A DNA stretch of 34,674 nucleotides from Saprolegnia diclina VS20 (Eukaryota; Oomycota; Saprolegniomycetes; Saprolegniales; Saprolegniaceae): positions 470,970-505,643 of the forward strand of contig NW_008246073.1 in NCBI RefSeq assembly GCF_000281045.1, given 5' to 3'. The notes under the pieces are model-generated. The model did no database searches and was not told the origin of the DNA. It worked only from the letters and a program-made list of their open reading frames with translations. Shown in pieces: positions 1,540-32,145 of the stretch (position 1 is the first letter of the stretch; each line of letters starts with the position of its first letter). The translations under genes and the position numbers were made by a program.

Positions 1540-4500
1540 CTAGTTCATGCGGCCGATGCAGTTGACGGCGCCGCAGTCGCACTTGATCGCTTCGTCCTCG
1601 ATCGGAAACTTGTAGTCGTACGTGACCTCGTCGCCGACGTGCAACGTCTGCTTGGCGAAGATGATGATCTTCTTCTCGTTTCCGTCGATCGTGATGATGC
1701 GCGCATTGGCCTTGGGCTATGGACGCAAACCTTAGTAATAGCACCTAGTATTCTTTGCAGTGGTGTACGTTGCAAGAGTGGTTGATGAAGCGCGCGAGGT
1801 TGCCCGTGCGCGTCGCGTCGACAATCGTGTCAGCGTCGAGCCGAAACATGTAGCAGCTTCCAATGCCCATCTCCTCGTATCTAGAGCACATTGAGTGATC
1901 GTAGTCGCCGCGCGAGGACGCATACCTTTTCTCGCGGCAGTCGGCGACCTTTTGCCGGATCGCTTGCCCTTGGTATTCGACAATCATCTTGCCTTCGGCG
2001 ATCTTTTCCTTGACAAAGAGCCCGTAGCCGTGGATGCGCGACTTGCGCACCTCGAGGCGCTCGTCAAACGGACGCTTCCGTAGCTCGCGGTACTGCATAG
2101 CGATCGGAAGCTGCTCCAAGTCGACGCTCGGCTTGTTGGCGTTGTTGCTGTTGGCAGCGATCGGCTCGTCTGCGTGCTTTGAGAGTCCAACTGTCCGGCT
2201 TTTCTTCTTGGTCGAGGGCTTGATCGCCTTGGACTGCTGCCATCCAAGGTACCCGTCGGTGCGGATGCTGCCCGACGACTGCTTGGCATGCTCGCGCATC
2301 GAGCGCAGCCGCTTGAGGTCCGTTCGCGCCTCGTCAAACGTGGCCTCGGACGGCAGCACGTGGCAAAACACGTACGGAAGCGGGTTGGCCACCGGGTCGT
2401 AGAGGGCGCAGGTCGGCGCCATCGGCAACGCCTCCAAGGCCGCGCCGACGACAGGCACCGTGAGGCCAAAAAAATGGTCGCCAACCAGGCCGTACGAAAA
2501 CCACGACGTCCGCCGAAGGAACGGGTTCCAGCCGACGCTGAAGACGCGCTGCGTCTCGTAGAGCGCCAAAAGACGGCTTCGGAGTTGGTTCATGGCGTCT
2601 AGGATAGCCTTGATACAAAATCACGATTCGATTGCGTACCGTTGGGCGAGACGCCAAAGATTGGGTTGTCCTTGTTGTCGGACGGTGTGATGCGAAAGAG
2701 CGGTGTCTTGGTCGGCGACAGAAGGATGTCGCACTCGTAGAGACAGCGCGTCTGGACCGTCACGGCACTCCAAAAGATGCGCGTGCTCCGGTACCCGATC
2801 GGGTACAATGTTGAGACGGTGTGGCACGCGTCGTTGCCCACCTCGATGGCACCGAGCGCGTGAACGGTGAGCGCGCCGATGCGGTAGCAGACGCCCTTGG
2901 CCAGCTGCGTTTTGCTGAGCTTCTTGGATTTGCCACTCGTTGCTTCCTGCTCGCACATGAGAAACCGAAGCGGCTCCACGCCAGGCGTCGGCGTCTCGAG
3001 CGTTGCCGTCGCCACAACGTGATCGACAAGGTCATTCAAGCATGCCGTCACATCACATGCCAGCATGGATTCCCCGTCCGTCGCTTCGCAGCCCGTGGTC
3101 GCCGTCTTGAGTTTCTTGCGCGCCGCGACGTCGTCGTCACGCTTGCGCTTTTTGCTGTGTGTCTTTTGAACGTGGACGCGCCAGTGGTCGGCGCAGAACG
3201 CTTGGTTTTCCGTCGTGAACGTCAGATGCGGCGTCGCGCAGTGCAGATGATAATTAAGCTGACACCGGAGCCCATGACAGCCTATTGTCGCGCCGCTCAA
3301 CAAGCACACTGCGCAACGGTACGTGCGGCCGCGGAATCGAGCTTTCTGGCACATCTTGAGCACGCCATAACTGTCTTCGTAGACCTCGGACGACCACGAG
3401 ATGCAGTTGACGTGCACCCACTGGTCGAAATCCGCAAACACGAGTCGCCCCGCAAACGCTGGGTCGTCCCCCGACTCGCGGCACAAGCCGCACACGCGCG
3501 GGTCCGTAAAAGCCCCGAGCGTCGACGACCAGTCGCCCCAGTCGCGCAGTGGCGGCGCAAACGTCATTTTCGCCAGTGCCGTGTGCACGGGCATCTCAGG
3601 CACGCGCATCGGCTTTGGCGTAATCTCTGCAACGGCGGTCTTCGTTTCGATCTCGGCAGACGCGTCACTGCCCGTGTCGACGTCGTCCAGAATCTCAATC
3701 ACGCTCGGCGACACTGGGGCGTCAGGTAGTGGTGGTACCTCGTCGACATGCGGCTTGGTGGTTTGCTGCTTCCGGCGTGCATACTCGTTGGTGATGGCGG
3801 CGACCTCGGCATCAATCGAAACAGCGCTGCGATCGACGAGCGCATCCGAGAGCCGAGCTGGAATGTCGTGGCTCGCGAGGAGTCCGGCTGTGAAGAGGCT
3901 AACGCGCTTCGTTCCATAGAGCCACGTGCAGCAGGCTAAGAAGGACGCAGCCCCGACTGCTTCCGACACAATGTGCGCGATCGCCGACGGCGTTGACGCG
4001 ACACCGTCCACCGTGAAGAATTGTTGCTTCTTGCGCAGCTCTCGACGCGCGGCAGCACGGGGACCCCGAGAGTAGCGCTTGAAGCGGATGTAGCGGCTAG
4101 CAGCTTGCCGCAGTGCAATCGGGATCATGCTCTCGGAAAATCCCGTCGACGGTGGCTCGACAAGGAACGAGATGCGACGCCCCGAGAGCGCTTTCAGGCA
4201 ATCTTCACCGCAGCGCAAGATGTAGAGGTACAGCGGCGCGTAGTTGCGCCAATGGTCGTACTGCCGCAGCGTCTGGCGCAGCGACTGCTGCGACTCCCAT
4301 GCGAGCGTGATTTCCTGCCGCTTTTCTTGGATGAGCGCAATGTTGAGCTGGAGGCCCCACGCTTGCCGGAAGGCCCTGAGGTGTTTTCGCTGCTTCTTGC
4401 GGCAATGAGGACAGTAATACTCGCTCTCGTCCGTGAGCGACGCAAGCGTCTCTTCCGTAATGTTGTCGCAAGCAGGATGCCCCCAGGACTGGCAGCCATC

Positions 4501-7500
4501 GCACTGTATGAGCGTCTCGGACTCGGACCAGCGTTTTTGGCAGCCTGGACACGTGTTGTTATCGCTGCCGCCGCGCGACCGGGGCTTGCGCGGCGCACCG
4601 AGCAGTGAGTCGCGGGCAGAGTCGTCCATGCAGCCGATGCAGCATGAGACGCTTGGGCTCCACGACGCGCTGTCCTGGATCTCGTGGCACGTCTCGCACT
4701 CGACGCAGTTGCCACACACAAAGCCCGTCGACGGCACGTCACGCAGTTTTGGGCGGAGGCAGAACGTGTGACACCCACGCTCGCAAACATCGCAGACTAA
4801 GAGCTTGGCTTCGTCCTTGTTGGTGCCACAGAGCTCACACAGCTTGCAGTTGGGGCAGCGCCAGAACGCCTGCAGCTTGGTTTGCTTGGCAGGGTTGTTC
4901 GACACGTCCAGCGGCGGGTGGAGGCAAAACTGGTGGTACGCCTCGCCACAGTCGATGCAAAATACAAACTTCTCGGACACGCCCGTACTGCAGCAGACGG
5001 CGCATGCATCGCACCATGCCAGTGCGTGCGCTTGTGCCAAAGACTGCGTCGCGACGACGCTGGCCACGCACGAGTATGGCTTGGGCACAATGCCCAGCTC
5101 GGTCGGAAGCTTGAAGAGGTCCAGGCGACCGACATCCGTCGTTGGCCCCGACGCCGCAACGTCGACTTCTTCTTCTGACCCGATCGAGGGCGACGGCACA
5201 TGCAGCGGAGAGTCCGTGGGCGTACCGAGACCATCGTCTGTTTTCGTCTTGGCCAACATGGCGTTAGCAAGCGTTGGACCGGCACCACCCGTGGACGTGG
5301 GCACGCCGCTTTCGTCCTTCGTTATAAGCGTCGAATTATTGGGCAATTGACGCTTGGCCGCAGCAGCGATGTTCTCCGAGAACTTGCCGTTCGGCACGAG
5401 GAGCACGGACGGAAGCAGCTGCCGCAGGAGGCGGGCGCCGGCGTTGTAGAAGCGCCACGCCTCTCGCCACACGAGGTAGTCTCGTTCCTTCGAGTTGAAT
5501 GTCACAGCGTTCAAGCACAGAAGCTCAAAGTGGTCCCGAAAGTCTGCGCCGAGGCCGTGAACATACGCGCGCTCCTTTAGCTGCCGCGCCATCGTGCTGA
5601 GGTCCATCGGCGACTTGATGATGTCAAAGTACGTCGGCGCGATCTCGACAGTCACGGGCTCGCTAAAGATGCCAAATTTGTCCTCAGCGCGCAGCGCGTG
5701 AAGAAGCTTGTAGAGGCGCAGCTGACGGCAGCTGGCACATTCGTACTTGGCCATCGTCCGCGGGTCGTACTTCGGCTTGAAGCTCAGTGCGCGCGCCAAC
5801 CGGTCGTCAAGCCACTTGCGCTTCAGCTTGTCGGTCCCAATGTCGTCGGGGCACACGTCGCTTGGTTCAATCGCGCCCACGCTGAAGTCCAGGATCTCAC
5901 TCTCGGCTGGGGTTGCGTGGTACATGGGATCTTGGTCCGGCTCGCAAGCGCTGTGCGCCCACAGCTCGCACGATGTGCACTGAAGCACGTCGGCACAGAA
6001 GCCGTCGCGGCCGTGCAGTTTGTGACACACGGGACAGTACTGCTGTGCCGCATACTCGATACTGCACTTGGCGCAGAGGTAGAGACGCGCAAGCTTGGTC
6101 TCGAAGAGCTGCCACGCGTCAACGTCGGAGGCGCCACAGCCGTCGCACGACCGGCAGCTGGCACAGACGTACGGGATTTCAAGGTCTCCAACGAGCTCTG
6201 TCCCGTCCTTGTCGAGGACCGGAAATCGCTCGTAGGGTGGCGAGATACACGCTTTGTGCGTGGTGATGGCGCAGGCGCTGCACGCGATGACGGACGCCGA
6301 TTGCAGAGGGAAGAGGCACGTCGCACAAGTCGGCGCATCCTCGTTTGTGGGTGGCACGTTGACGTCGAGACCCGGGTCATCGCTCCCGCTGGTCTGGAGT
6401 TGGAGGACGGCGTCGGCGTCAAGGTACCATTGCATCGAGAGGTCGGTGTACGAGAGGTGGCACTGCCACGTCCACGCCGTCGAGCGAACGCCCTCGGTGG
6501 TTGCAGGCGTCGGAGGCGACACGACGACGCTGGAACCTTCTTCGGTCTCGAACCAGTAGTTGTCGCCATTGCCCGGCACCTTGTCCATACGCGTGATGCG
6601 TCCCACAAGCGTCGTCTGTGTCGCGTAATCAACGATGCCAACGCGCTTGCCGACCCAGTCCGCGCCGACAAAGTGTTTTTGGATCTCACGCGCGAGCCCA
6701 TCGCGAGCGTCCTGGACGATTGCTACGAAGCGGTCATTGGCTCCGTGCGCTGTGTTGACCGCGCTTTGCCACGCGACGTCTTCTCTATATGCGTCGGCGG
6801 CGTCGGTGGCGAGCCACTTGTCGAAGGAGCGCAAGGACGAGAGCGGACACCACACCACACGCGTTTCGTCGTCGCCCGCCGATGTGTACAAGAGCACAAG
6901 CGCGTCTGCTTCCTCCTTCGCTGCGCCAAAGAGAAGCTTTGCTGGGTCGTTGAGCACCATCTTCTGTGCAGGCCACCATTGGCGCTCGAGGTGCAGAAAG
7001 ACGTTGGTGTTGGTGCCGACAGCCACTGGAAGGGAGTGCAACGGCAGCCACTGCGTCGTCGCGTCACAAAAATTGACGCGAAAGAGCAATCGGTGCAGGT
7101 CCAGCGCCATGACGTCACCAATGGACCACGGTGCGTCATCCTGATGGCGAATCAAGACGCGCCGCCCGACGTACTGGTGAAGCGTCTTGAGTTGCTTGGC
7201 GTCATCGATGCGTTTCATCCGCTCCGTGAGCGGCTCTGGGATCACGATGCGGAGCGGCTGCCGCGACACGCTGTCCAGCGACGCATCTGCGGCTCCCTCC
7301 TCATCTTCATCGTCGGGCTCATCATCACTGACGTGAGGCGATGCTCTGGGCGTGCTTCCTCGGCTGCCACTGCCCTTGCGGGGTTTTTTGGGCTTGGGCG
7401 ACGCCTTGCTCTCTTTCGGGAAGCGCTTTCCAGACTTGGAGGTGGTCGGTTGCGGCGGCGCGGTGCGGCTGTTGTCCCTTTTTAGTCCGTCACCGCTCGA

Positions 7501-8558
7501 TGGAGACGCATCGCGCTTGCGCTTCCGCGACGTCTTGGCCGCTTTCGTAGTACTGTCGCTGTCGTCGTCTAGCGCAAGATCGATGATCTCGTCCGGCTTC
7601 AATGCTGGCTTTGGCGCCTTGCGTGGCCGAGACTTCGCTGCGTTGTCGTCCATCTCATCACTTTCTATCGCGCTGGTGTGGTGGGTGACGTCGCAGTGCA
7701 CGCAGAACCATTGTCCAGACGGTACAACTCGCATGTCGAGATGCGCCATCGAGAACTCGCCTGAGCAGCTGTCGCAGAGCACAACCATCGCGTCGTCGAG
7801 GGGTTCGTCAAGAGGAATGATAATGTGGTCCGCGCGCCCACCGCGTTGACGACTACCCCGGCGAGGGGCTTTGTCGCGCTCGTTCTCAAAGCAGGATGGG
7901 CACTGCCATCGGCCCTTGCTCACGCTCGGCAGGCATAGCGTATGTGCCGTCGACACGAGGCACGCGCAGCACTTCATAATGTGCATCTCGGGGATCGTTG
8001 TCAAGCCGCAAGAGGAACACACGCCATCTGTACTCATGGGCAAGTCGTCAGACTCGGACTGCTCGAGCGGGCTTGCACCGAGACTCCCCTTCAACATCAC
8101 AGCATGAGTCAATGTATGCATGTAGCGTGAGCTGCATACCGTCGAGAGCAGAGACGGCGATGTGGCTTTCGTTGCCACACTTTCAGCTGCCATCTAGACA
8201 TGTCCAAGTGGCCCATCAGCATGCATACTTGCCAGCGTGCAACACGAACCTCGTCTGTATCGCTGGGCGAAGACGCGTCGTCTTGTACTGGCGCTCCTTG
8301 CATGCGGTCCCAGAGCTCGTCCGCTTCTTCGTCGTTATTGTCGCCGTCTTCAATGATCTTCTTGACTGTTTCGGCCAGGAGGAGGCCGCGTTCGGGCTTG
8401 AGCCGTCCCGAGCAGCCCGAGCAGGTCCATGAGGTCTTGGTTCGGCGCTTGTTGCGCACGCAGGGCGCGTGGAAGGTCCCTCTGCAGGCGGAGCAGCGCC
8501 ACTCGTCGTCGGCGCCGTCGGCCACGACCCGATGGCACTCGTCACAGGAGCGCTGCAT
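1540..8558 (-). CDS. KMT2/MLL/trithorax-like histone H3K4 methyltransferase
   Basis: Nuclear histone-lysine methyltransferase, expected to methylate H3K4. Exons 8558-8250, 8193-2640, 2598-1926, 1880-1769 and 1716-1540 give about 2274 residues. Order: an N-terminal Cys-rich finger (about 5-40); PHD-like fingers (about 161-270); a Lys/Arg-rich region with an acidic run (290-405); two Tudor/PWWP-like segments (about 440-660, weak); PHD fingers (725-860); a bromodomain (about 925-1030); three PHD fingers (1162-1370); an extended PHD (about 1670-1775); FYRN (about 1868-1945); FYRC (about 1957-2055); SET with GYGLF, NHSCNP and [10 protein letters not shown]; and a post-[11 protein letters not shown]. 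This is the KMT2 order with extra PHD fingers. The first intron could instead be 8194-8228, which is also in frame. Intron 1881-1925 is 45 bases, in frame and stop-free, inside SET. The catalytic and zinc residues appear intact. The 3' end nearly touches the FUN14 gene. Confidence 0.93.
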
Positions 8559-11247: not shown

Positions 11248-12511
11248 ATGAGCCGCCTCAGGTGGCTGTCATTTCGGAACTGGCCTTCAACGAGCATGAA
11301 CAAAGGGACGAAGATCGCCATCGCGGGTACGACGCCTCGTGAAACTGCGTTAAAAAATCGTTCCTCGTGTTAGTGATACTGCTTCTCGGCGCAGTCTTCG
11401 GCATTCTCGGCGGCGTCGGTGTCTTCTCGTCGTCCACGTCCGTTTCTGACAAGGCGACCCCGGACAATCAAACCAAAGCAAACGGCTCGTCCACGTCACC
11501 GACGCCTGCGACGGGCACTGCTGCACCTGGCTCACTGCCCGACGTTGTTGCCAACTCGTCTGCCCGCGAGGGTCATCTGGACCGTCCCGCAAGCTGCAAG
11601 ATTGTGCCTCCAGGAAAGCGCGTCGCCGCCTTTTGGATGACAGAAATTGGTGGCTGCGAGACCGTACGTCACTACGCATTATTGAACCGATTTAGTCAGC
11701 TCTCTACCGTAGATCCCCGATGGCGTTACGCACGTCTATTTCGCGTTCGCCGAGATCCAAGCGGGCCTCGTCAACCAGTCGTTCCAGACGAGCGAAGCCA
11801 ACATGACGGCATGCGTCTCGGCGTTGCGCAAGTATGCGTTTAAATGATCACCTTTCGCGCGCTGAAGAGCCTCCTAGGCGGTGCATTCTGGTACTCGGCA
11901 GTATTGGTGGCGCCAACGCCAGCAAGTACATGAAGACCGTCAAGGACCCGCAGGCGTTTGCCGACTCGGCGATGGCGCTCATCAAGAAGTACAAGTTTGA
12001 TGGCATCGACATGGACGACGAGAGTGTCGGTCCCGAGTTTGACGGCGTGCGCGTCTTGGCGTACATGAAGGCCCTCTACGCGGCAATGAAGGCCAACGGC
12101 AACAACTACCTGCTCACGTACGACGCGTTCATGTACGAGGGCAACCTCGACACATGCAAGAGCGCAACGTACATTCGGTGTTGGCCCGTCGGCCTCGAGA
12201 AATACCTCGACTGGGTCAACGTCATGGCGTACAACATCAACGACAACCCCGCAAGCGCCAACGGCATGTACGCGGCGGCCACGAAGCCTGGTGACATCTT
12301 CTCGCGCTGGGCGACGCTCGTCACGGCACCAAAGGTCATGATCGGCACGTGCAGCCGCGACGGTGATGCCTACGGGCCATGCGCAAGCGCGGCGGTGGTT
12401 TCGCAGTGGACCAAGTGGGCCACCAACTATGGGGGTATGATGGTCTGGGCCGGCTCCAAGGACGTCAAGTACAACTACGAAGTGCTGACCAACATCATCA
12501 AGAGCCAGTGA
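11248..12511 (+). CDS. GH18 family chitinase-like glycosidase, membrane-anchored or secreted
   Basis: Glycoside hydrolase family 18 enzyme, expected to hydrolyse beta-1,4-N-acetylglucosamine polymers. Exons 11248-11326, 11374-11663, 11713-11831 and 11878-12511 give 373 residues. The N-terminus has a hydrophobic helix (about residues 23-45, KIAIAVILLLGAVFGILGG), acting as a signal anchor or signal peptide. A Ser/Thr/Pro-rich linker (about 45-80) follows. The catalytic domain begins near residue 95. Beta-3 carries SIGG (171-174), and beta-4 carries the complete DxxDxDxE signature, DGIDMDDE (204-211), with Glu211 the expected acid/base; a WVNVMAYNIN strand follows. An alternative start is Met at 11296, in the same frame, which would shorten the tail before the anchor by 16 residues. 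No chitin-binding module is seen. Possible roles are remodelling of the cell wall or digestion of external chitin. Confidence 0.9.
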
Positions 12512-15926: not shown

Positions 15927-18900
15927 ATGTGGGTCAAGAGCCCCGAGGAGGAAGCGTTCTACGGGCGCATGTTCGCGCTCGCTGACGTCGACAAGAACGG
16001 CAAGGTGCAAGGGAAGAAAGCGGTCGACTTCTTCACCACGAGCGGACTAGCACCCAGCGTGCTCAAGCAGGTACGCCGTCGCAACACAACGACGATGCTC
16101 CATGCACCATAGGTCTGGAGCCTCGCGAGCTCGAAGATGCAGCCGTATCTGGACCAAGATGAGTTCCACGTAGCCTTGGGTCTCATCGCGCTGGCGCAGA
16201 AGGGTGAGGCATTGGACCTCGCCGCCCTCGTTGCGGCGGGTCGCGCCCGACAGCTACCACTGCCTTTGTTCCACCTCGCCGACATATTTGTCATGACGCC
16301 GAGCGATGAAGAGAAGTACGCGAGCATCTTTCGTACGTCGGCGCCAAGCGGGACCATTGCGCCGACCGAGGCGATCGAGCTCTTCCAAAAGTCGGGCCTC
16401 GCCCTTGCGGTACGGTCGCCATGCACTCGCTCAGGTGCTCATGGAGCCCACGCTATTAGGACGTCCAAGCAATTTACAAGCTCGTGGACCCAACACTCTT
16501 GACAGCACTCCCGCAGCAGGCGTTCACGATCGCAATGCACGTCATCGTGTGCAAGACGCGCCGTGGTCTCACGCAGCTGCCCATGTCGGTGCCCCGCGAG
16601 TGGTTTCCAACGCTTTTCTCATCTTCGTTGGCATCACTTGCGCAGTGCACATCCGCCGACGACATGCTCAGCATGCAGGTAACTAACCACTTACAACCCT
16701 ACCGCCTTATACGATTATTCAAAAATGGCAGGCCTCCATCCAGGCAACACTGCAGAAGACAGTCGCGAGCCTCCCTGTCGTAGTTGTGCCGTCGGTCTCA
16801 TCCATTGTGGCACCGCTGCAAGCGCTGGGGTATCACTTGCCCGACACAGCCATGATGCTCAGCGAGTCGTCGCTTCGCGAGCTCGAGGGCGTCTTGCTGA
16901 CATACGTACAGGGAGTCCAGAAGGACTTGCTCTTATCGTCGCCGGAAGGAGTGCCGCTTGCGACGCTGGTGCAGACCCTTTCCAATTTGAAGACGCAGTC
17001 GGCGCGTCTTTTGGAGCAAAAAGAGGCAGCGATGTCTCGTCACGGTAGCCGTCATCCAGGTCTCCACGTCGACACGAAAGCCAGCAGTAGTTACGTTGAC
17101 GCGCCGCCGTCGTTTCCAGGTAACTTTGGCTAATGCATGCGTCGATTGATTGCGTATCATCATGCTTTTTGCATCTCTCTAGCGCCGACAGCAGGCTGGG
17201 ATGCGTTCGAAGCCGCTCCAGCGCCCATCTTGCCGACGCAGACCGTACCAGAGCCCTTGCTTTTCTCGCCAACCGGGGCCGGGGATCCATTCGGTTTTGA
17301 CATCCTGGGTGGCACTGGGGGCAGCTTTACTGCGCCGATGGTTGCCTCGACGCACGTTGTCGCTACCGAGAAGCCCGTGCTCGACGCGTTTGCGTCCGCG
17401 TCATCGTCGTCGTTCAGCGCGTTTGATGCGATGAACGACATGGACTGGGGCTTTGCTGACAACCAGTACGAGCCCGTACCCGAGTTGGACGAGGCGACAG
17501 AGGTCACGAAGACAGCACCAAAGAAGATTGACAGCAACGAGCTGTTCCGGGCACCAAAAACTCAAGCACCGAACGTGCACGGCTTCGATAGCCCGTCGTT
17601 TGGCTCGGCAACATCTGCTCCAGAGCCCACGGCAAAAAATGCGTTTGGGGTCTTCCCTGCTCCGGCCGTCAAAGACCTCGGTGCGTTTCCGCCGATGGAT
17701 GTGCCATCATTTGGGTCGTTTGCAGCGACGGCGAACTCGGACGGCTTTGCAGACGCCCCCACTACTCATGGCTTTCAAGCCTTCGGTGCCGAGACTGTGA
17801 CCGGCGACGGCTTTGGCCCGTTTGCATCCTCGGATGCTGGTGCTTTCGCTTCTGCTCTTACCGCGTCGGGTGGCGACTTTAGTGCGTTTTCGTCCCCAGG
17901 TGCCGATGGATTCGGCACCATTGGAGCCACAGAGGCTAGCCCAAGCTTCGGTGCATTTGACGCACCTTCGGACGCGCCGGTGGCAGTTGACTTTGGCGCG
18001 TTTACACCAGCACCAGACGCACCGGCAGCGAACGGCTTTGCGTCCAGCGGCTTCGGGGCATTTGACGCTGCGCCATCTGTCGATGATGATGGCTTTGCGG
18101 CATTTACCAGCAAGTTGGAGACGTCCGCTGCGTTTGACGGCTCGAGTTTTGCGGCTTCATCCACTGGTGACGCGCCTTTGCCGACAGCTTTTGCTTTTTC
18201 GTCGAGCGAGGTGGTATCAACAGCAGAGACCGATGGCTTTGGGGCTTTCAACGAGTCGTCGGTGGTTTGTGATGTGTCCCCCGCGTCCGAAGCTTTTCCA
18301 GCGTTTGCTGCTGCCGAGTTCTCACCGCCGCCGGCCGACGACTCGTTCGGGGCGTTTGCACCCACCGATGCTTCGACGACCGATGGTTTTGGTGCGTTTC
18401 CCGCGTTTGAGCCCAATGCCGCCGTTTCGTCAGACGCCGTAGCAGAAGTGGTCGTCGACACGCTTCCAACGCCCGAAGAACTGGTCAACGTCTGTGGTAG
18501 CGACACGAGCGCGGTGTTCTGTGCGTCCGCCTTGCCCCACGATGCGGACTTGCGGGGCGACTCGCAGGCGCCGGCAGCGACGGAAGATGGCTCGGTGCCT
18601 GTCGATCTTTCGGAAAGCAGCTTCGTTACGGGCCCCATCATCGAAGCGGCATCCAACCCGTTGCCGAANNNNNNNNNNNNNNNNNNNNNNNNNNNNNNNN
18701 NNNNNNNNNNNNNNNNNNNNNNNNNNNNNNNNNNNNNNNNNNNNNNNNNNNNNNNNNNNNNNNNNNNNNNNNNNNNNNNNNNNNNNNNNNNNNNNNNNNN
18801 NNNNNNNNNNNNNNNNNNNNNNNNNNNNNNNNNNNNNNNNNNNNNNNNNNNNNNNNNNNNNNNNNNNNNNNNNNNNNNNNNNNNNNNNNNNNNNNNNNNN

Positions 18901-19772
18901 NNNNNNNNNNNNNNNNNNNNNNNNNNNNNNNNNNNNNNNNNNNNNNNNNNNNNNNNNNNNNNNNNNNNNNNNNNNNNNNNNNNNNNNNNNNNNNNNNNNN
19001 NNNNNNNNNNNNNNNNNNNNNNNNNNNNNNNNNNNNNNNNNNNNNNNNNNNNNNNNNNNNNNNNNNNNNNNNNGTCCCAACGCCAAGGGAAGGTGCGTTC
19101 GCCTTGAGCCAAGAGGACGTCGCTTCTGTGACGCCGCCGGCAACGGAGTCGGTGCCTGTCGACGAGCCAAGTGATCCCCCGACGACTCCCTTCGAGTTGG
19201 AGGAGTTTGTCAACCCCCCGGTTGCACCATCGTTGGTAGCACCGACGCTGTCGACATCGTGCGGTGCCAGCGTTGATCATCCGCTGGCGGCCACCAACGC
19301 TGCCACAGAGACGAACATCACGGCCGTTGCGCAGGATGTCGTCTTGGACCGCGACGGATCGTTCGTATTCGTCGCGTCGGCCAACGCCCCGACGATGTCG
19401 TCCGAGCCGATGGTCGTGGCCGACGACGACTGCGGCTGCTTTTGTGTGCCCGACAGTGGTTTTGCCGATTTTGCTTCGCCAATCGCAGCGCCGTTGACCG
19501 AGTCGGGCACGTCGACGGTACCCGTGCCACCCAGCGACGACATTTTTGGCGATTTTCAGTTTGCACCCGCGCCGTCGTTTGCTGCTTTCGCAACGGCGCC
19601 AGCCAACTCGGGGACGGCGGCACCGGACACAGCGTTTTCGAGTCTTCCAGCGCACCCGTCGGATGACATCTTTGCTGATTTTGCCGACTTCACTTCGGCG
19701 ACGACCGCAGCCAACTGGGCGTCGTTCTCGCCCCCTGCCGCGCCAACGGCCTCGGACGACTTCACATTCTAG
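15927..19772 (+). CDS. EH-domain endocytic scaffold (Eps15/Pan1-like) with Phe-motif tail; contains assembly gap
   Basis: Exons 15927-16070, 16113-16409, 16460-16678, 16732-17119 and 17183 onward encode about 844 residues before an N gap, and 232 more follow it. Two EH domains are visible: residues about 1-95, with an EF-hand-like loop DVDKNGKVQG and VWSLASSKM, and about 120-215, with IYKLVDP and FTIAMHV. EH domains bind Asn-Pro-Phe peptides on clathrin adaptors, so a role in endocytosis is expected. A helical linker follows. The long tail is low-complexity, with about fifteen Phe-x-x-Phe motifs before the gap (often FGAF) and DDIFGDF and DDIFADFADF after it; such Phe motifs resemble adaptor-ear ligands (inference). 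Frames on the two sides of the gap disagree for its stated 405 bases, so the gap length is nominal or hides an intron. A 38-base tandem duplication spans the stop. Confidence 0.85.
18669..19073. other. Assembly gap (405 N)
   Basis: A run of N lies inside the repeat-rich tail of the EH-domain gene. The coding frame before and after the gap differs by one position for this length, so the true size is not 405 or an intron lies inside. The Phe-motif repeats probably caused the assembly break. Confidence 0.95.
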
Positions 19773-22140: not shown

Positions 22141-24153
22141 CTAGACTTCGTCGGCCGTGCGGGGACGCTTCATCGAACTCTCGTCGCAAGCCTTGGGACA
22201 TATCAATACTCGCGTGCAGACATGTAGTATCCGTACCTCGTCAAGGCCGCGCTTCGTCACGAGTGGGCTTCCTGGCGCCAGCTGGGACGGCAAGATAACC
22301 TTGAGCTTCGACGACGCGACGACGCTGTCATAGCAGTACTTGTGGAAGATTGTTTCCTTCGGCGGCGACGTCTGGATCGTGCCGCGCACCGCATTCTGGT
22401 ACATCCACTCTTCCTCGTCATCGTCCCAGCACTTGGAGAATTGCTCGCTACACACAGCAATGAGCGTCAACGATGCGCCGGATGGAACATACCCGCAGAT
22501 GCGGCATTTGGTGGTCGCTTCGTCGACAGGCACGCGGGCTTGGTCCAGCACATCCTTGTCGACCTCTACCAAGGTATTCGTGAGCTCTACAAAAACGGAT
22601 TTTCAAATCGTACCAGCTTCTTGTTGCGCAATGGCAGCAACGCCGTCGACTTCCTTTGTGCTGGAGACGGCGCAAAAATCGGTGGCCCATTGCTACGCAC
22701 GAATCGTAAGTCGATGCCATTCGAACATGGTCGAGTTGCAACGAAGGCGTACCTCTTCGTCAGGGTACCATGGACGCGAGTTGCCGCCCTTCGTGCGCTC
22801 GCGCTGAGCGCGGTTGTATTGGAACAAAAAGTCCATGTGCTCAGAGAGCTATTCACAGCGATAAGAAGGCTAAACAGCGAGAGCAGTGACCAACTGTACC
22901 TGCTTCTCGTTAGCAAAGCGGACACCGCTGCCAGCACAGACGAACGGGAGACCCTCGTAAAGAAGGTAGATGTTTGCGTCGATGCGACGCTTGTTGACTT
23001 GGATATCGGAGCACTTGAGACCCGACGTGGCCGGCGCGAGCGAGCCTGGCGCTGTGATACCTTGGAGCTTTTGCAAGATCATCATAACTTCGGCAGTCGT
23101 CTTTTGGGTGGGTGGCTGCTGGCCGAGTGGTGGCGACCGGGACGGTGCAGGCACAGGTCGTCGGTGCGTTGGTTGATGTTGCTGCGACAGCTGGTGCGCA
23201 GCAGAAGGACGCTGTTGGTAAGCGAGTACGTTGCGGGGCGGCGGTTGCTGCGTACGGGGGTTGTTGCCATACCGCGGGTCGCGAGGATCACGAGGGTCAC
23301 GCAGTTCCGGCATCGGGCGCGTGCGAGGGGAGCGCGGTCGCATCAGTTCGGGCTGCATCGGAGCGTGGCGTTGGGGCGGCGGTTGTTGACGTGGCGGCGA
23401 ACGCGGCCGGGCAAGCGTGGCTTGCTGAAGTGGGCCTTGGTGTTGCATACTCTTGTGGAAGTCGAGGAGCTGCGCATAATACGCGGGGTTCGACATGCGC
23501 ACGTCTTCGAGGCTCATGTGCTGCGCGGGGTGGATGCCTTCTTCATTCTGGAGGTTCGTCAAGAGGAGGCGGAGTTGCATGTCGTCGGCGACGGGGCGCG
23601 TAGCAGCAGGTCGAGCTGGCGGTGCAGGTCGCGCGGCAAAGCTTGTTGGCTGGTTCGTGGGCTGCGCGACGCGAGTTGCAGAGTCGGTGGCGGCGCGCAT
23701 TCGGGCGAGGTCGTTCTCCGGGAAGAGGCGGACTTTCTCCCACGTATTCAACACATGAACAAATCGCTTCAAGTCGGTTGGATTCACAACTCTAACGCAC
23801 TCTACGAAGACAGGCGGAAGGCTGCCGCCGAGAAGCTGCACGTACGGCCCGCCAACGTTTTTCAAGATCGAGTCCATGAGGTACAAGATCGGGAGCTTGA
23901 AGGCGGGCACGACACCGTGCAGCTTCGAGACCAAGAAGGTCGCCAGCGGCTTGGCCATCGCCAGGTTCTCCGCAATCATCGTGAGGTTGTTGATGATCGG
24001 TTTGGCCGGGTACGCGCCCAGCTTGTTGAGCGTCTCGTCGTACTGGGCCAAGGAGGCCGCGACGCCCACGTTGTCGCCCATGCGTAGCTGTCGTGTGGTT
24101 TCCAACTGACCGCTTTCAGTGGTGACCACACTATTTGTCACATCGTATACCAT
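22141..24153 (-). CDS. Pcf11-like mRNA 3'-end cleavage and transcription-termination factor
   Basis: Nuclear factor that links the RNA polymerase II C-terminal domain to pre-mRNA cleavage. Exons 24153-22900, 22848-22753, 22692-22614, 22565-22237 and 22191-22141 join to 602 residues. Residues about 35-145 are a CID (KPIINNLTMIAENLA, LPILYLMDSILKNVGGPY) that should bind the phosphorylated CTD. A long Pro/Gln/Arg-rich middle with two or three DPR repeats follows. The C-terminal part has HMDFLFQYNRAQRE and WYPDEE, then the zinc-binding CRICG...FSKCWDDDEEEWMYQNAV and FHKYC, the signature of the Pcf11 Clp1/CFIA-binding region. The protein is at the short end for the family. The last intron (22192-22236) would end in AAG and is in frame without a stop, so it may be retained, adding 15 residues. 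It is convergent with the armadillo gene. Confidence 0.92.
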
Positions 24154-24970
24154 TTGTTATGTTTCGAAATAGTGTACTTTTTCACGACTGGCTTCTTATC
24201 CTGGCTATCCCATTGTCCTGCATCTCGCGTCCATGGTTGACGTAGTGAAGCATGATGCGCTGCACTCTTATTATAACATTTTAGGGCTGCCAGCGACTTC
24301 CTCCTTAGTCGCAAATGCTGCATAATGCTGTAGGTTTCACAGTCTAAGAGTGTGCAGAACGCGGGGAGTGCTGAAATAGACGCAGGGTTGGGTTTTCCGC
24401 AAAGAGAAACGCGCAGAAATTCATGGTGCAAGCGCCGTTGGTGGCAAGTGCCATGACCCAGATCAAGACGCCAAGCCCAGCTCGATGTCATTGAAATATC
24501 TATTGGAGCGCTGTATCAGTTTTCTTCGGCACGGGTGTTGCTTCAGTGCTGCAGGAGCGTGCGTCAGCAAGCGGGCGGATGCGACGTTGCACCGATCCCG
24601 ATCCGTCGAAGGAATCTTTTGCTGCGCGCGCAAGTTCAACGTGCGCCTCGAAATCCGCCCAGATCAGCGCAGAAATGTCTACAGCCCGTCAGGTTCTATG
24701 CGAGAGGGGGCTCGTGGGCTTTTCTTCTTTTGCGGAGCGGCGACTGTCTGTCTTAGAGGCTGTCGTAGGACGTTGGTTCGGCAGATGTCTCGCTCGCCGT
24801 GATCTAGCGTGTCCCACTGGGATCGGCAAGCATCGCAACCAGCTTAAAATAATATATAGTTATTTGTATGCTGCTTCATTAAAGCAGCCGTGCCGACTGT
24901 GATTGGCTGCCTTCTCAAATCCAAAGATCGCTGAACCAAGAACTCAGTTTGCATTTTGCCACGGACAAAG
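24154..24970. promoter_or_regulatory. Divergent intergenic region between Pcf11-like and vault genes
   Basis: This 817-base region separates the divergent Pcf11-like (minus) and major vault protein (plus) genes. An inverted CCAAT box (ATTGG) at 24902-24906 lies 65 bases before the vault start, at the same distance as CCAAT boxes in other promoters here. The only hint of coding is a possible J-domain remnant at 24233-24480. Open frames at 24485-24902 show no recognisable protein. Confidence 0.35.
24233..24480 (+). pseudogene. Possible decayed J-domain (DnaJ-like) gene fragment
   Basis: An ATG at 24233 opens a short frame whose residues 9-24, LHSYYNILGLPATSS, look like the first helix of a J-domain (typically YYxILGLPxxAS). 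The frame soon stops. About 150 bases later another frame reads EIHGASAVGGKCHDPDQDAKP, which aligns loosely with helix II and the HPD loop of J-domains but carries His-Asp-Pro-Asp. A third frame then continues with helical residues. I could not connect these by introns of the usual type, so it is either a frameshifted relic or a chance resemblance. Confidence 0.25.
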
Positions 24971-27616
24971 ATGGAGTACGAAGGAGCGCGCGTGATTCGC
25001 CTGCCGCCATACCAGTACCTGCACGTGCTTGACACCAACTGCAACGTGACGCGCGTGCTCTCGGGGCCGCAGACGTACACACGCCAGGACCACGAGAAGA
25101 TCGTTAGCGGCCCGAGCCCGATGGTCATCGTGCCGCCGCAGTCGTACGTGGTGATCGAAAACCCAGTGGTGCGGTCCGATGAAGGTACTCGTTTGACGGC
25201 AGAGCCTCTATCTCAATAACGGATGTGTCTAGGCACGGTCGTCGTCGATGCATACGGCCAGGCGAAACTTAGTCATGGCGAGCGCGAGATCCGTGTCGCT
25301 GTGCAATACCAAGACCCGTTTCCTCTTTACGCGGGCGAAGTCCTCGTCGGCGTTGTGCAAAAACTCACGGTCCTCGACATCAACTCGGCGCTGCGTGTCC
25401 GTGCGAACCGGGACTTTGGTGGCCATGCAGCCGGAGATGAATGGCTATTCCTTGGGCCTGCAACGTACATTCCACGCGTCGAAGAAGACGTCGTTGGTTC
25501 CATGAAGGCCTCCGTCATTCAGAAGAACCAAGCGCTCAAACTTCGCGCTGCCAAGAAGTGCACTGATTGGCTTGGCTCGACACGCGATGCTGGCGAAGAG
25601 TGGCTCGTGCGGCAGCCCGGCACGTACATGCCGCGCGTCGACGAGCTTGTGCTTAACGTTCTCAACGCAACGATCCTCACCGAGAAGACGTCTTTGCATC
25701 TTCGGGCGCTTCGAACTTTCACGGACATCTACAAGGTCCAGCGCAAGGCTGGTGAGGAGTGGCTCGTCACGAGCAAGATGGCCGAGACGCATGTCCAAGA
25801 TGTCCACGAAGAGATTGTGTCGCACGTGCCTATCACAACGCTCTCGAACCGGCAGTACGTTGTCGTCTTGGACCCGATTGTCAACGGCGTGCAGCAGCTG
25901 GGCACACGCGAGATTCGTCGCGGTGAGACGAGCTTCTTTCTTCAACCTGGCGAGTTCCTTGAGCACGGCATCATTCAGGACGTATGCATCCTCGGCGACG
26001 ACGAGGCAGTCTTGCTTCAAGCGAACGAGTCCTTCGTCGACGATGGCGACACGCAGCGCCACGCTGGCAGCAAATGGATGGTGTACGGTCCGTGCGAGTA
26101 CGTGCCGCGCATCCAAGTCAACGTTCTTGAGACGCGGAAAGCGATTCCTTTGGACAAAAACGAGGGCATCTACGTGCGCGACACCAAGACGGGTAAAGTC
26201 CGCGCCGAGACGGGTCAAACGTACATGCTGCAGCCAACGGAAGAGCTTTGGGCCAAGCCACTCCCAGATGAGGTTATTGAGCTCCTCCAACAAGATTCGT
26301 ACGTCGAAGGCAGCACCGTGGCCGGGCGCGGCCAAAAGGCGCGCGATCCCACGCGCGTCGTGACGTTTGAAGTACCGCACAACGCCGCGATTCAGATTTA
26401 CGATTACTCGTCGACTCGTTCGCGTATCATGTTTGGACCGACGCTTGTGATGTTGAGCCCCGAAGAGCAGTTCACGGTCATGAAGCTCTCGGGGGACGTG
26501 CCCAAGCGTGCCAAAGTCATCTGCACGCTCTGCCTCCAACTCGGACCCGACTTTATGCGCGACCAGGTACACTTCCTCACCATCCAAAACCCATCGTTTA
26601 TGCGCTGCCAACTAGATCACGGTCGAAACCTCCGATCATGCGCGGCTTCGGCTCACCATCGCGTACAACTGGCACTTTGAAGTCCCGGCGGAGAACGCAG
26701 CCAAGATTTTCTCTGTGCGTGACTTTACGGGTGACGCATGCAAAACGCTTGCGTCACGCATCCGCGGTGCCGTCGCTGTCGAAACGTTCGACCATTTCCA
26801 CAAGCACAGTGGTGCGGCCTCCATGTCATCTCCTTGCTCTTCTCATGGAAGTGATTAGCGAGCATCATTCGGACGGCGATCTTTGGACTTGACGAGTCGA
26901 CTGGCGAAGCCAAGAAGCAGCTCATTTTTGCGACCAACAACCTTGTGATCACGAACGTCGACATTCAGTCGGCCGAGCCCGTCGACGCTCAGACGCGCGA
27001 TAGTCTACAAAAGTCGGTGCAACTCGCGATCGAGATCACGACCAAGTCGCAAGAAGCCAAGGCCAAGGCCATCGCGATGAAGGAGGACGAGGAAGCGAAA
27101 GGCCTTCTCATCACGCAGCAACTCGAGAACCAGACCGAGGCGGAGAAGGCGCGGAAGCGGCTCGTGGAGCTATCAGCGCAGTGCGCCGCGGTCGAGGCTG
27201 AGGGTGCCGCTGTTGCCTCTGCTAAGGCCAAGGCACAAGCTGCCGAGATCGATGCACAGGCGGCTGTCACACAAGCCGAGTTGCGGGTCAAAGCACTGCA
27301 GATCGAACACGAGAGCCAAATGCGCCGGCTCCAGGCCGAACACACGCTGCAGATCGAGCACGCCAAGCAACTCGCTGAGCTCGAGATCCAAAAGAAGCGC
27401 GAGCTCCTCGCGATTGAGTCGGATAAGTTCAAGAGCATGATTGACGCTATCGGGCAGCAGACGATCGTGGAAATGGCGCGCGTCGGACCCGAGACCCAAG
27501 TTAAGTTGCTGGCCTCGCTCGGGCTGCAAGGCTATCTCATCACAGATGGCAAGTCCCCCGTCAACCTTGTCAACACGGCGCAGGATCTCGTGCGTAACAT
27601 TTCGACCGGTGCGTAG
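24971..27616 (+). CDS. MVP: Major vault protein
   Basis: Main structural protein of vaults, large hollow cytoplasmic ribonucleoprotein shells built of 78 copies in animals. Exons 24971-25184, 25233-26566, 26616-26811 and 26859-27616 join to 833 residues (human MVP is 893). The N-terminal two-thirds consist of MVP beta repeats with GPxTYxPRVxE-type motifs ([32 protein letters not shown]). The shoulder domain (about 505-640) includes [19 protein letters not shown] and [15 protein letters not shown]. The long cap helix (about 660-800) is a coiled coil with [15 protein letters not shown], and the end [14 protein letters not shown] matches the family's conserved cap-ring segment. All key regions are present, so a functional shell protein is likely. 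Vault RNA, TEP1 and vault PARP are not in the window. Confidence 0.96.
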
Positions 27617-27855: not shown

Positions 27856-30372
27856 CTACATACGACCCCACGTCGGCTTCATCTTGAGCTTCTTCTGGAG
27901 CCGCTCCCGCACCGAGGTTGGTTGTTTTTTGGTTGTGGGTTTGGCGGGGGCCTTGCTGGATTTCGTGCCACTTGGGATGTCGGGACGGACGTCGACGGGG
28001 GCCTTCGGTCGCTTGGCGGCCGGCGGGATGGCCCCGCGAGCCTTTTTCTTTGGCGGTACCGGTTCGTCATCATCTTCGTCCTCGTCGTTTTCTTCGTGGT
28101 CATCTTCGTCGTGGTCGTCGTCATGTACAAGGTCCTCGGCGGCGTCATCATCGTCAAGCGGGCGCACCGATTTCGGTAAGACGGGTGCTGTTTTCGGTGA
28201 CTTGACGGCTTTCTGCGGACGTTTCTGTTCCATTATCAGCTGTGGGTGCAAGGACAAGACTAATATGTACCTTTTGGAGGCAAGGAAGGCATACATAGTC
28301 TTCAGGTGGCTCTTGGTCATTCGGGATCCCGGCGCACAATGTATGTTGCCACGTATTGCAGCGGTCGCAGGCCACCATGCGGCACCCGTCGTCGTAGTTT
28401 TTGGCACGAATGCCACAGCTGCAGTGCACTACCCAGTCGCCAGGCACTGTAGCGGCGCTGCATTTAAAGCAAGTGTAGCCCGGTGGTGGCTCCTGGTTGT
28501 CAGGGATGTTGGCGCAGTGCGTGTGCTGCCATGTCGGGCACGACTCGCACTGCACCATGCGCTTGCCATCGTCGTAGTTTTGGCCTTTCTGGCCACAATT
28601 GCACTCGAAGTACCAGTCCTCCTAATAGCCACGAGTCTAAATCGCCCCGATTCTGAGCAAAAGAGGCATACCGCGATGAGGGCTGTCTGCACCTTGGCCT
28701 TGGCTTTCTTGGACTTCTTACCGGGCGTTGTGATGCAATGGGCCTTCGGCACCATCGACGCCTTCAGCGGAAAGGCATCGGTAGGGATTTTGACGACGAG
28801 GTGATGCTGAAGCTTGGGCAGAGGCGCCGAGACACGATCACGACGAAACTTGGGGTACGCTGCTTCGACATCAGAGACAGTCGAGCCCTGATCGAGATTA
28901 GCTTCCGCCAACAGATCAATGGGAACGTACGAGGCTTGAGTCGCTGTCGTCGCTTGCACTGCTGCTGCTACTGCTCCCGTCGTCGTCGACTCCACTACTA
29001 CTGCTTGTCACACTCGTGTCGAGTGTATTGGTGCGCACTCGGAGTTGCGCAAGCACCGCCGCAGCCGACGGTTGGTCCCGAGTAGGCAATACATCAGCCG
29101 CTGCGTCGGCGTGAATGTCATCGCCAAGTGCTGGGAGGAGGAACGATATCGCCTTCTCATCTGCCGAAGCAAAGCGAAGGTAGTCACAGGCAAGGTGCCA
29201 CAAAAGCGGCGACAGCGACGGAAAACCCATTGATGGAAAAGCCACTCGGTCCAAGTGGTAGCAATGCCACTGCGTCGCGAGGTCCAAGTCGTGCATAAAT
29301 GTCCCTTCATAGAGCAGCACGTCCTACGAGCGCTCTGAGTTGAAGGCGGTCAGAGTACTCGAATACCTCGACGGCAAACGTAGCATACAGCCACCCGGAA
29401 GGAATGAAGATCGTTGCACCAACGTCCAAAAGCGTAAACGCACTTGCCTCAACGAGATCATCAAACGGGCCGTGGAGGTTCTCGACGCGCGATCCTTGGT
29501 ACGCGCGGAGGTTTTCAGGTGTTGGTGGGATCAAATGAACGTTCTAGCACAGAGATCAGGCTTCGCCATGGATGCTATTGAACGCACGAGCTTGCCAGTG
29601 AGGACCGTGATCCAGGTCGACGCGCCGCTGCTGCCGTTGCGAAAGCCCTCAAAGCTATCCTTGGCGCAGACCTTGACGTGACGGGGTGTTGCCGGTAGAG
29701 ACGGAAACCGCTCGATCCACCCAATGTCGATGACGATCGTTGGTGGGGTCAACGCTGCTGAGACTGCTTCGAGGCGCAAAGTTGCCCAGCGTTGCGACGG
29801 GGGTGTCGCGATGTAGTCGTTCCATTGCGCAAGCGTCCATGCCGGGACCGTGGCACGGGCGACGGGCTACAAGTTTCGTATGAGAACTTGACGAGAAACC
29901 TCAGCGGCGTGTACGTCGATGACGAGAACGAATTCGCGGTCCACGAAAGCGCCAATACTGGTGATAGTGTACGGCCCGGGTGGTCCTAGACGACGTAGAC
30001 TGGAACGACGTCTCTATGACGTCACCGTACCGGTGATGCCGATGCTCTTTCGCGAGAGCACGACTAGCGGCTGCGTGAATCCCGTCTCCTGAAACTAAAA
30101 GCATCATCATAGCATCTAGAGCCGCCACGAAGGCAAGAAGCGCGTACCCACTCCTTCGAGACGTTCTCGCCATCGACGATGTTGACCGCGAAGGCGCGCG
30201 CTTGGCGCCAGTGCTGGAGGTGCCGAAGCTCTTTGGCCGCTGCAGTTGCGGCTGGATCGACTACGCCCGACGAGGCTGAGCGCACTACGTGGTCGAGGCA
30301 ACGAAGCATGAGGATCCGTGGTGCAGCAGCATGGTCATGGTCGTGGCAGTAGCATCTACCTTCCTCCACCAT
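27856..30372 (-). CDS. JmjC protein (KDM2/KDM7-like) with tandem PHD fingers; probably catalytically dead
   Basis: Nine exons (30372-30148, 30088-30031, 29985-29915, 29866-29588, 29543-29367, 29323-28931, 28887-28672, 28621-28271, 28224-27856) join to 712 residues. Residues about 65-310 follow the KDM2/KDM7 JmjC fold: ETGFTQPLVVL, LAQWNDYI, PPTIVIDIGWIERF, KDSFEGFRNGSSGAS, LIPPTPENL, FIPSGWLYA and FMHDLDLATQWHCY. The Fe(II) ligands His-x-Asp are Arg194 and Gly196 here, and the distal His is Tyr264, so demethylase chemistry is not expected. After a Ser/Asp-rich linker come two similar PHD fingers (about 476-527 and 535-588), each with C-x-CG, YDDG, MV-x-C and WQHT, the type seen in plant MMD1/MS1 proteins, which may read histone tails. 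An acidic run and a Lys-rich tail end the protein. It is probably a nuclear chromatin reader or scaffold (inference). Confidence 0.9.
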
Positions 30373-30440: not shown

Positions 30441-31897
30441 TCAGCGCAAAAGGTCGCGGACCGCGCCAAAGCGCTCGCGACGGTCCGTGGGCGACCGTTG
30501 CCAGATGACCTCGACGGCGGGTCGAAGCTTGACAACATCTAGAGGTAGCGGGCGATGGAAAGACTCTGCGTACGTCGCCCACATGGATGGATGCACCAGC
30601 GCAACGAAGGCCAGAACGACGCATTGCCGCCACTCGGCCATCTTGGCTTCCCATGCGGTGAGCGTCGTCGCTGCGCTATGGAGCGCCACGGAAAGCTCTT
30701 GCACTTGTTCATACGTGGCTTCAAATGCAGGTTCGCACGAGACTGCGACGTAAAACGCGTCGTCAAAGGGCGGCAGAGTTGCATTCCACGCCATCACCTT
30801 GGCGAGGAGCGGACCAGTCAGCTCTGCCGTATCTTCGCCTCCGGGTGTCGACGATGCAGACTGGAATACTTCGTGCTGTGGAGCAAAAGCTTGTCCGTAC
30901 GCGATGCAATCTTCGGCAGCCAACGCATCAAACGGTCTCTTCCCAGACTACAGAGACAAACCTCGTCAGTCGACGTCGCCATGTACGCTGTACCGTGTTG
31001 ACCAGCGTCGTGTTAGTCGCTGGTACGTCCGCGGCCATAAACTCGCGCAGCAGGGCAACAGTCACGCGACTGTTTTCGCACAGTACGTGCAGGGGCGAGT
31101 TGCCAATCTACATGCATCGGTTAGATTTGCATCCATACCATGGTTTTGTACGTTGTCTTGCGTATTTGGGTTGACGCCTGGTTGATGAAGCATTGCATGC
31201 AGCATTGCCGGGGAGACTTTCGCGTTTTGGCATAGGTAATGGAGCGCGGTTGCCTTGAACTAGTTGCAAGAAACAAGATCATAGATGTGAGGTGAGCTTC
31301 GAGCTGCGCGTACGTGGTTCTGGGTCATCATGCCGCTAGCAGGTGGCGTTGCTCGCAGCGCGAGTAAGAGCATGTCGTCTTGCAGCGCTTGGTTTGACGC
31401 CAGGTAGTGCAGCGCCGAGTTGCCGTCACCGTCCATCGCGTTCACAAAATTGCCACCCGGTGCCGAGAGCATCACCTGCAAGAGTGCTGCGCTGACGTTC
31501 TCGTTCATGCATAAAAAGTGCAAAGGTGTCGACTTCTTGTCGTCCTATGTCATTGATCGCCGTGAGCCACCTCGGCCCCAAGACTCGAGGACACCGTGGA
31601 CGTGGCATTGACCGAAGCGCCAGCTCGAATCAGCTCGCCGAGTGCCATCGCATTGATTTCGTTGTTCTTGCAGAGCAAATGCAGGGGCGTGTGACCTGTC
31701 TCGTCGACGGCGTGGACGCTGGCTCCGGCTGCCAGGAGAGGCTGCAGGCTGGAGACCGAGCGGTTGTCGCAGGCATAGTGCAGCGGGGTCCATCCGTCCA
31801 TTTCCATGAGCGCGATGGACTTGCCGACGAGGATCTTCCCGAGGGCTGCAGCGTCGTATTGCCCTTGTACGAGCCCCCACACGTCGTCGTTGCTCAT
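30441..31897 (-). CDS. Ankyrin-repeat protein
   Basis: Exons 31897-31595, 31544-31314, 31259-31152, 31107-30994 and 30947-30441 join to 420 residues; the four introns are 44-54 bases. Residues about 30-252 form about six ankyrin repeats, marked by DGWTPLHYACDN, TGHTPLHLLCKN, KSTPLHFLCMN, GNSALHYLASN, KATALHYLCQN and GNSPLHVLCEN. The remaining 168 residues (from SGKRPFDALAAEDC) are mostly helical, with a short hydrophobic stretch (QCVVLAFVALVHPSMW) that is too polar to be a sure membrane helix. Ankyrin repeats mediate protein binding, and the partner is unknown. It lies head to tail downstream of the CTL promoter and upstream of the JmjC gene: its stop is 69 bases before the JmjC start, on the same strand. 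Confidence 0.87.
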
Positions 31898-32145
31898 GTC
31901 CCCGTGATGACGAAGATCGGTCAGTAGGACGTGGCATCCGTGCCATATTTAAGAAACCTCCGTTTCCAGATATGCAGCGCCATCTGGGTTAAATCCTTGA
32001 AAACAAAGGACTAGCTGCAGTATAAATGGATTCTTTTAAAAATGTAAGTCGAATAAATCGGAACGTTCTTTCATATTGAGCTATAGAACGCTTATATTAA
32101 GGAATCTTTGTTCTTCGACCTGTGAAAGATGATGCTCATCCACAT
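31898..32145. promoter_or_regulatory. Divergent promoter between ankyrin and transporter genes
   Basis: This is a 248-base AT-richer region. TATAAAT at 32021-32027 lies about 120 bases before the transporter start and could be a TATA-like element; no CCAAT box was noticed. The function is inferred only from position. Confidence 0.3.

Follow-up and report, generated by a model that had tools for sequence, protein, structure and literature searches.

A Saprolegnia JmjC protein of the KDM2/KDM7 type that lacks iron- and 2-oxoglutarate-binding residues is a candidate chromatin reader

Animal PHF2 (KDM7C), fission yeast Epe1 and budding yeast Gis1 are JmjC proteins in which the distal iron-binding His has become Tyr; they are difficult to judge, each retaining most of its active site. 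They are also the described systems closest to a gene of Saprolegnia diclina VS20, an oomycete whose genus comprises fish parasites and saprobes, that we analysed in a 34,674-nucleotide stretch of contig NW_008246073.1 (positions 470,970 to 505,643; hereafter the window). In a spliced model, this gene (27856..30372, minus strand) encodes a JmjC domain without iron ligands, a Ser/Asp-rich linker, two PHD fingers and a conserved C-terminal motif. The JmjC domain of Gis1 is of the KDM4 type, not KDM2/KDM7. According to portions of one report, PHF2, in which Tyr replaces His as in Epe1, is a reader of histone H3 trimethylated at lysine 4 (H3K4me3) that works with cohesin, and demethylase activity has been reported for it (PMC11790891). 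PHF2 keeps the iron-binding His and Asp, whereas the window protein has none of the three ligands nor the 2-oxoglutarate (2OG) residues; in the excerpts that describe it, its PHD finger is N-terminal, unlike the two C-terminal fingers found here. Epe1 resembles the window protein in its distal His-to-Tyr change and has a non-enzymatic function, such as we propose here; it differs in retaining both H297 and the 2OG residue Y307, and passages of the Epe1 study report that function is abolished when these residues or the Tyr are mutated (PMC7192584). Gis1, likely inactive with the same distal change and with a JmjC domain dispensable for SSA3 induction, differs in combining JmjN and JmjC with DNA-binding zinc fingers, as described in sections of PMC4085034. 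Judged from its sequence, the window protein is of the PHF2/Epe1/Gis1 kind but further gone, having lost the 2OG residues as well as all three ligands. Among the titles listed in literature searches that reached few subscription papers and no bioRxiv preprints, none concerned an oomycete JmjC pseudo-demethylase, and passages of a paper on stramenopile epigenetics (PMC3145265) treat diatoms and brown algae.

The original prediction, made from the letters alone, had placed at 29367..29866 a JmjC domain without any iron ligand. This was confirmed by alignments to solved structures and by an S. parasitica orthologue (P0001) with the same residues, and the interval is exactly exon 5 (29588..29866, minus strand), exon 6 (29367..29543, minus strand) and the 44-nt GT-AG intron between them (29544..29587). 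The window protein has the fold and sequence of a KDM2/KDM7-type JmjC domain, its top phmmer match among solved structures being PHF2 (E 2.4e-27), then KDM7A, PHF8 and KDM2A. The phmmer alignment was gap-free inside both ligand motifs, with one short gap between them: DSFEGFRNGSSGASTW of the window aligned with DSYTDFHIDSGGASAW of PHF2, and IPSGWLYAT, on the former distal-His strand in exon 6, with IPSGWIYAT of PHF2 and IPTGWIHAV of PHF8. The H-x-D/E...H metal triad of active JmjC demethylases is replaced by R/G/Y. In exon 5, where the former His-x-Asp site reads R171, N172 and G173, Arg171 (codon CGC, 29639..29641) takes the place of the first iron His and Gly173 (GGC, 29633..29635) that of the iron Asp; Tyr241 (TAT, 29385..29387) takes that of the distal iron His, and this His-to-Tyr change is the hallmark of PHF2/Epe1/Gis1-type pseudo-demethylases. 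These three residues had been read correctly from the start, although numbered 194, 196 and 264 under a different N-terminal exon model. Exon 5 also carries E168, I181 and L188 in place of T/Y/K, which we take, from KDM7 structures, to be the 2OG-binding positions of KDM7 enzymes; L188 (CTC, 29588..29590) stands at the Lys position, in agreement with the altered region noted before (GKLNVHLI in place of GEKIFYLI). Scans with Pfam PF02373 (JmjC) reported no match at E up to 0.1 in the window protein or at E up to 1 in P0001, and routine annotation would therefore overlook the domain.

A shifted alignment restoring His/Asp/His was rejected, since the register was the same in all alignments made, including those with KDM2A, PHF8 and KDM7A and those of 36 and 243 sequences. 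A fault in the gene model, the assembly or the alignment is scarcely credible as the source of these residues: the splicing was built without transcripts and the first model required refinement, but the ligand codons lie within exons, away from junctions, several alignments concur, and the separately annotated S. parasitica protein nearly refutes the idea unless both assemblies share an error.

Three protein searches, two of which listed only 120 of 291 and 120 of 1793 matches, provided 243 proteins for alignment, an uneven sample with many fish and frog KDM2A sequences, some rows without an organism name and none named PHF2. Both H/D/H and T/Y/K were present in 236 of these 243 listed proteins. 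The seven that did not have both (P0001-P0007) came from six species, all named as Saprolegniales genera, with order placement looked up for S. parasitica and Aphanomyces stellatus. The first His, Asp and distal His positions read R/G/Y in S. parasitica as in the window, R/G/F in Achlya (P0002), T/G/Y in Thraustotheca (P0003), D/N/Y in both A. astaci rows, R/S/Y in A. invadans and H/N/Y in A. stellatus, where T/Y/K is still present; the distal site is thus Tyr in six of the seven orthologue rows and Phe in Achlya. In these predicted proteins, the loss is common to Saprolegniales and the replacement residues are not. From parsimony we infer that the distal His (now Tyr, or Phe in Achlya) and the Asp (now Asn, Ser or Gly) changed early and that the first His went last. 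PF02373 scores fade along the same series (A. invadans excluded), being above the cut-off in two Pythium-type proteins, below it in A. stellatus, A. astaci and Thraustotheca, and unreported for Achlya, S. parasitica and the window.

These two Pythium-type proteins, from Globisporangium splendens (P0037; Pythiales) and [Pythium] brassicae (P0128), share with the window protein a JmjC domain, a Ser/Asp-rich linker, tandem PHD fingers and a RERLxKKLK-type C-terminus, but retain H/D/H and T/Y/K and have the two fingers in reversed order. The whole cofactor site is erased in one oomycete order, and intact relatives of the same architecture persist in another; with intermediates still living, this offers a natural way to ask what remains for a JmjC domain to do once its chemistry is gone. 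No Phytophthora orthologue was named among the matches listed (120 of 291 and 120 of 1793), which does not show absence.

Because all ligands and 2OG residues are gone, the gene is otherwise open and the loss is common to seven rows, a non-enzymatic role, as originally proposed, is very likely. With its two histone-reading zinc fingers almost unchanged, the protein very probably serves as a chromatin reader or scaffold rather than as an enzyme. A latent enzyme, holding metal with a Tyr ligand in the manner of PHF2 or through substitute residues, is most improbable: PHF2 itself has the distal Tyr, a PDB entry (3pu8) is titled PHF2 Jumonji-NOG-Fe(II) complex, and A. stellatus retains the first His and the 2OG residues, but Arg and Gly occupy the remaining two ligand positions in Saprolegnia, where E, I and L have replaced T, Y and K.

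We then compared divergence in the JmjC domain and in the PHD fingers, as ratios of Kimura distances with 2000 column bootstraps, for ten of the 21 possible pairs among the window protein and P0001-P0006. The JmjC/PHD ratio was 2.46-8.93 over these ten Saprolegniales pairs, all ten intervals lying above that of the sole Pythium-type pair, whose ratio was 0.38 (0.24-0.60); three hand-picked animal KDM7 pairs gave 1.60, 1.37 and 1.44. Since the ratios of the Saprolegniales pairs exceed that of the Pythium-type pair, selection in Saprolegniales is, on these distances, mainly holding the PHD fingers and not the JmjC domain. Identity between the window protein and S. parasitica was 92% in JmjC and 99% in the PHD fingers, the latter being 75-89% identical to those of other genera, and G. 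splendens and [Pythium] brassicae shared 82% in JmjC and 61% in the PHD fingers. The C-terminal 22 residues (QPTSVRERLQKKLKMKPTWGRM; 27859..27924, minus strand), recognised by orthologue comparison, had 91-95% identity when the window protein was set against those Saprolegniales orthologues, five in the comparison, in which the motif is complete, P0001 having only 12 of them; by eye, the motif resembles the ...AKQRLGKILK ending of PHF8/KDM7. P0001 (SPRG_20791) lacks about 55 residues before and within this motif that are present in P0002-P0007 and in the window, likely a cut in its gene model.

The positions of the former pocket vary among orthologues (T/V/E, Y/H/I, K/Q/L, H/D/R/T and D/N/S/G), and one conserved new pocket ligand is therefore disfavoured. 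This bears on the original prediction's suggestion of reading or masking a mark, which a repurposed JmjC pocket might do by binding, with no metal present, a methyl-lysine tail or some other ligand. The fold does seem to be retained, with none of the 223 window JmjC positions lost in P0001-P0004 (where insertions reach 14 residues) and a confident predicted structure for P0001, and passages of PMC7192584 indicate that cofactor-site residues of the Epe1 JmjC domain influence partner binding. However, only 34 of the 223 positions do not vary in the seven rows, and 20 of these hold G, W, P, F or Y; the readers that have stayed conserved are the two PHD fingers on the C-terminal side. We consider a repurposed pocket unlikely.

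Both fingers, a (residues 453-504; 28460..28615, minus strand) and b (residues 512-564; 28280..28438, minus strand), matched Pfam PF00628 and had complete C4HC3 zinc ligands, also by eye. Their sequence neighbours in the PDB include the PHDs of Set3, MLL5, PHF20, BPTF, PHF13 and PHF2. The H3K4me3 cage of KDM7 proteins is given as YYMW in the consulted part of PMC10321576, and by eye three of its four positions hold Y, M and W in both window fingers, the first being Glu or His. In A. stellatus the cage Y of finger b is replaced by F; in the Pythium-type pair it is replaced by I or L, and both fingers of [Pythium] brassicae carry L. There are good grounds to expect that the two fingers read H3K4me3. 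As for their order, in the window (28280-28615) and other Saprolegniales a WYFEC-type finger comes first, and in P0037 and P0128 a DWVVHCSCG-type one. About 20 kb from this predicted H3K4me reader, the window also holds a trithorax/MLL-like gene (1745-8193, minus strand) with PHDs, a bromodomain, FYRN, FYRC and SET, presumably the architecture of an H3K4 methyltransferase.

The explanation that we favour, and regard as likely, is that of a KDM2/KDM7-derived pseudo-demethylase acting non-enzymatically through its PHD readers, with the JmjC domain as a folded spacer or docking platform. Relatives of the same architecture in Globisporangium and [Pythium] brassicae retain a full active site, whereas metal ligands are gone from every Saprolegniales orthologue retrieved. 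The two fingers would dock on methylated H3K4 close to active promoters, partners would be recruited by the acidic/Ser-rich and C-terminal segments, and the JmjC domain would persist as a folded spacer or protein-docking platform (cf. PHF2, Epe1 and Gis1). Such a protein could not remove methyl groups but might protect or mark chromatin through occupancy.

Several observations weigh against this explanation. Activity has been reported for PHF2 despite its Tyr, in the part of PMC11790891 concerned, though PHF2 keeps the other two ligands. We infer H3K4me3 binding from just three of four cage positions, the order of the PHD fingers differs between the two oomycete groups, and no H/D/Y intermediate was seen among these oomycetes. 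The JmjC/PHD ratio in cross pairs was 1.36 (A. stellatus-Globisporangium) and 2.34 (window-Globisporangium), and several Saprolegniales pairs have bootstrap intervals that overlap those of the animal KDM7 pairs, which together span 0.77-3.69. Moreover, the JmjC domain measures 223 residues in the window, fewer than the 233-237 of Aphanomyces or the 244-245 of the Pythium-type proteins. Its identity between the window and Achlya is 57%, against 35, 53 and 61% for three disordered segments; the first description of it as an otherwise conserved scaffold is thus not supported at the level of sequence, where the domain diverges about as quickly as these segments. For a domain so variable and shortened, its own role could be small. 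In a tree of 30 of the 36 aligned JmjC regions (P0007 and five others omitted), the window protein and P0001-P0006 formed one group (97/100), whose stem was long (1.24 changes per column). Without the sequence from a second locus, on contig C42, the best tree joined Saprolegniales to the Pythium-type pair at only 87/89, and grouping with animal KDM7 was not rejected (approximately unbiased test, p = 0.407), nor with KDM2 (p = 0.103). Firm placement with either family was therefore set aside as not settled by the topology tests, and with tree support indecisive, orthology with the Pythium-type protein rests chiefly on the common architecture.

The rapid divergence, the long stem and a JmjC domain some 20 residues shorter than the Pythium-type one would also suit a decaying remnant, in which the JmjC part or the whole protein is functionless. 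We hold this to be improbable, given annotated proteins in six other species, the nine GT-AG introns of the window gene, and the identity of the PHD fingers and the C-terminal motif reported above.

The second locus came from a search of the genome (54.15 Mb in 169 contigs), which held a single near-identical copy of the JmjC gene, the window's own. Queries from the intact P0037, P0036 and P0009 revealed one other KDM2/KDM7-clade locus, on the minus strand of contig C42 (about 166800-164000), with an N-terminal PHD of the KDM7 type (CICRQGYDPKRFMIECAHCDRWFH, PF00628), a JmjC domain and then Cys-rich zinc-finger-like stretches. Its JmjC domain matched PHF2 best (1.9e-21) and has YRDFRMN and IPSGWMYAL, that is, R/N/Y; the longer matches cross one TGA, which we took for an intron. 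The other matches of these queries were the window's own gene, other JmjC types by their motifs (C19 and C86) and C38 at E 2.5. The search was made exon by exon in an assembly that may be incomplete, and as the P0009 query missed the window's gene, a further degenerate gene could escape it. Seven PF02373 matches elsewhere in the genome had, by eye, an intact His-x-Asp/Glu in all four where it was visible (L001-L004) and an intact distal His in all five where it was visible (L001, L002, L004, L005 and L006); triad loss in this genome is therefore seen only in the KDM2/KDM7 type. The Pfam JHD helical domain had no match in the genome, which is uninformative, control genomes being equally silent.

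We give even chances to a broader proposal, that Saprolegniales abandoned KDM2/KDM7-class demethylation, both loci having lost their ligands (the first His apparently separately) and become readers as selection passed from JmjC to PHD. If so, living species would hold the steps, from H/D/H relatives through H/N/Y to R/S/Y, D/N/Y, T/G/Y, R/G/F and R/G/Y, and the conversion of a histone demethylase from enzyme to reader would be open to experimental tracking. The erased cofactor site of the window protein also leads us to predict that the mark removed by KDM2/KDM7-type enzymes in other oomycetes is handled differently in Saprolegnia.

The gene model underlying these results started as a 722-residue splice model, whose junctions were then revised to fit the proteins of S. 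parasitica (P0001) and Achlya (P0002). The refined prediction runs on the minus strand from 30372 to 27856 and encodes 689 residues in ten exons, separated by nine GT-AG introns that are 43-75 nt long. A short N-terminus is followed by the pre-JmjC region and JmjC core (residues 51-273; 29246..30094, minus strand, interrupted by introns at 29986-30030, 29867-29914, 29544-29587 and 29324-29366), a helical part, the Ser/Asp-rich linker, an AYPKF segment, the two PHD fingers, an acidic/basic tail and the C-terminal motif. Pfam showed PHDs solely at the C-terminal end, with no N-terminal finger as in KDM7 (first model scanned; the refined N-terminus is short). An N-terminal CYCHDHDH stretch of the first model was ruled out as a metal site, as it becomes intronic in the refined one.

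Just upstream, with a gap of about 70 bp, lies an ankyrin-repeat gene (30441-31948, minus strand). A stop separates it from the JmjC gene in the window, and we thus regard the ankyrin-JmjC fusion of Thraustotheca (P0003) as probably a fused gene model and did not accept it as real. Elsewhere in the window, we observed a run of N (masked or gap) at 18669-19073 within a long open frame, a glycosyl hydrolase family 18 match (11807-12511, plus strand), a CID-domain protein that we take to be Pcf11-like (22870-24156, minus strand) and major vault protein repeats (25220-26680, plus strand).
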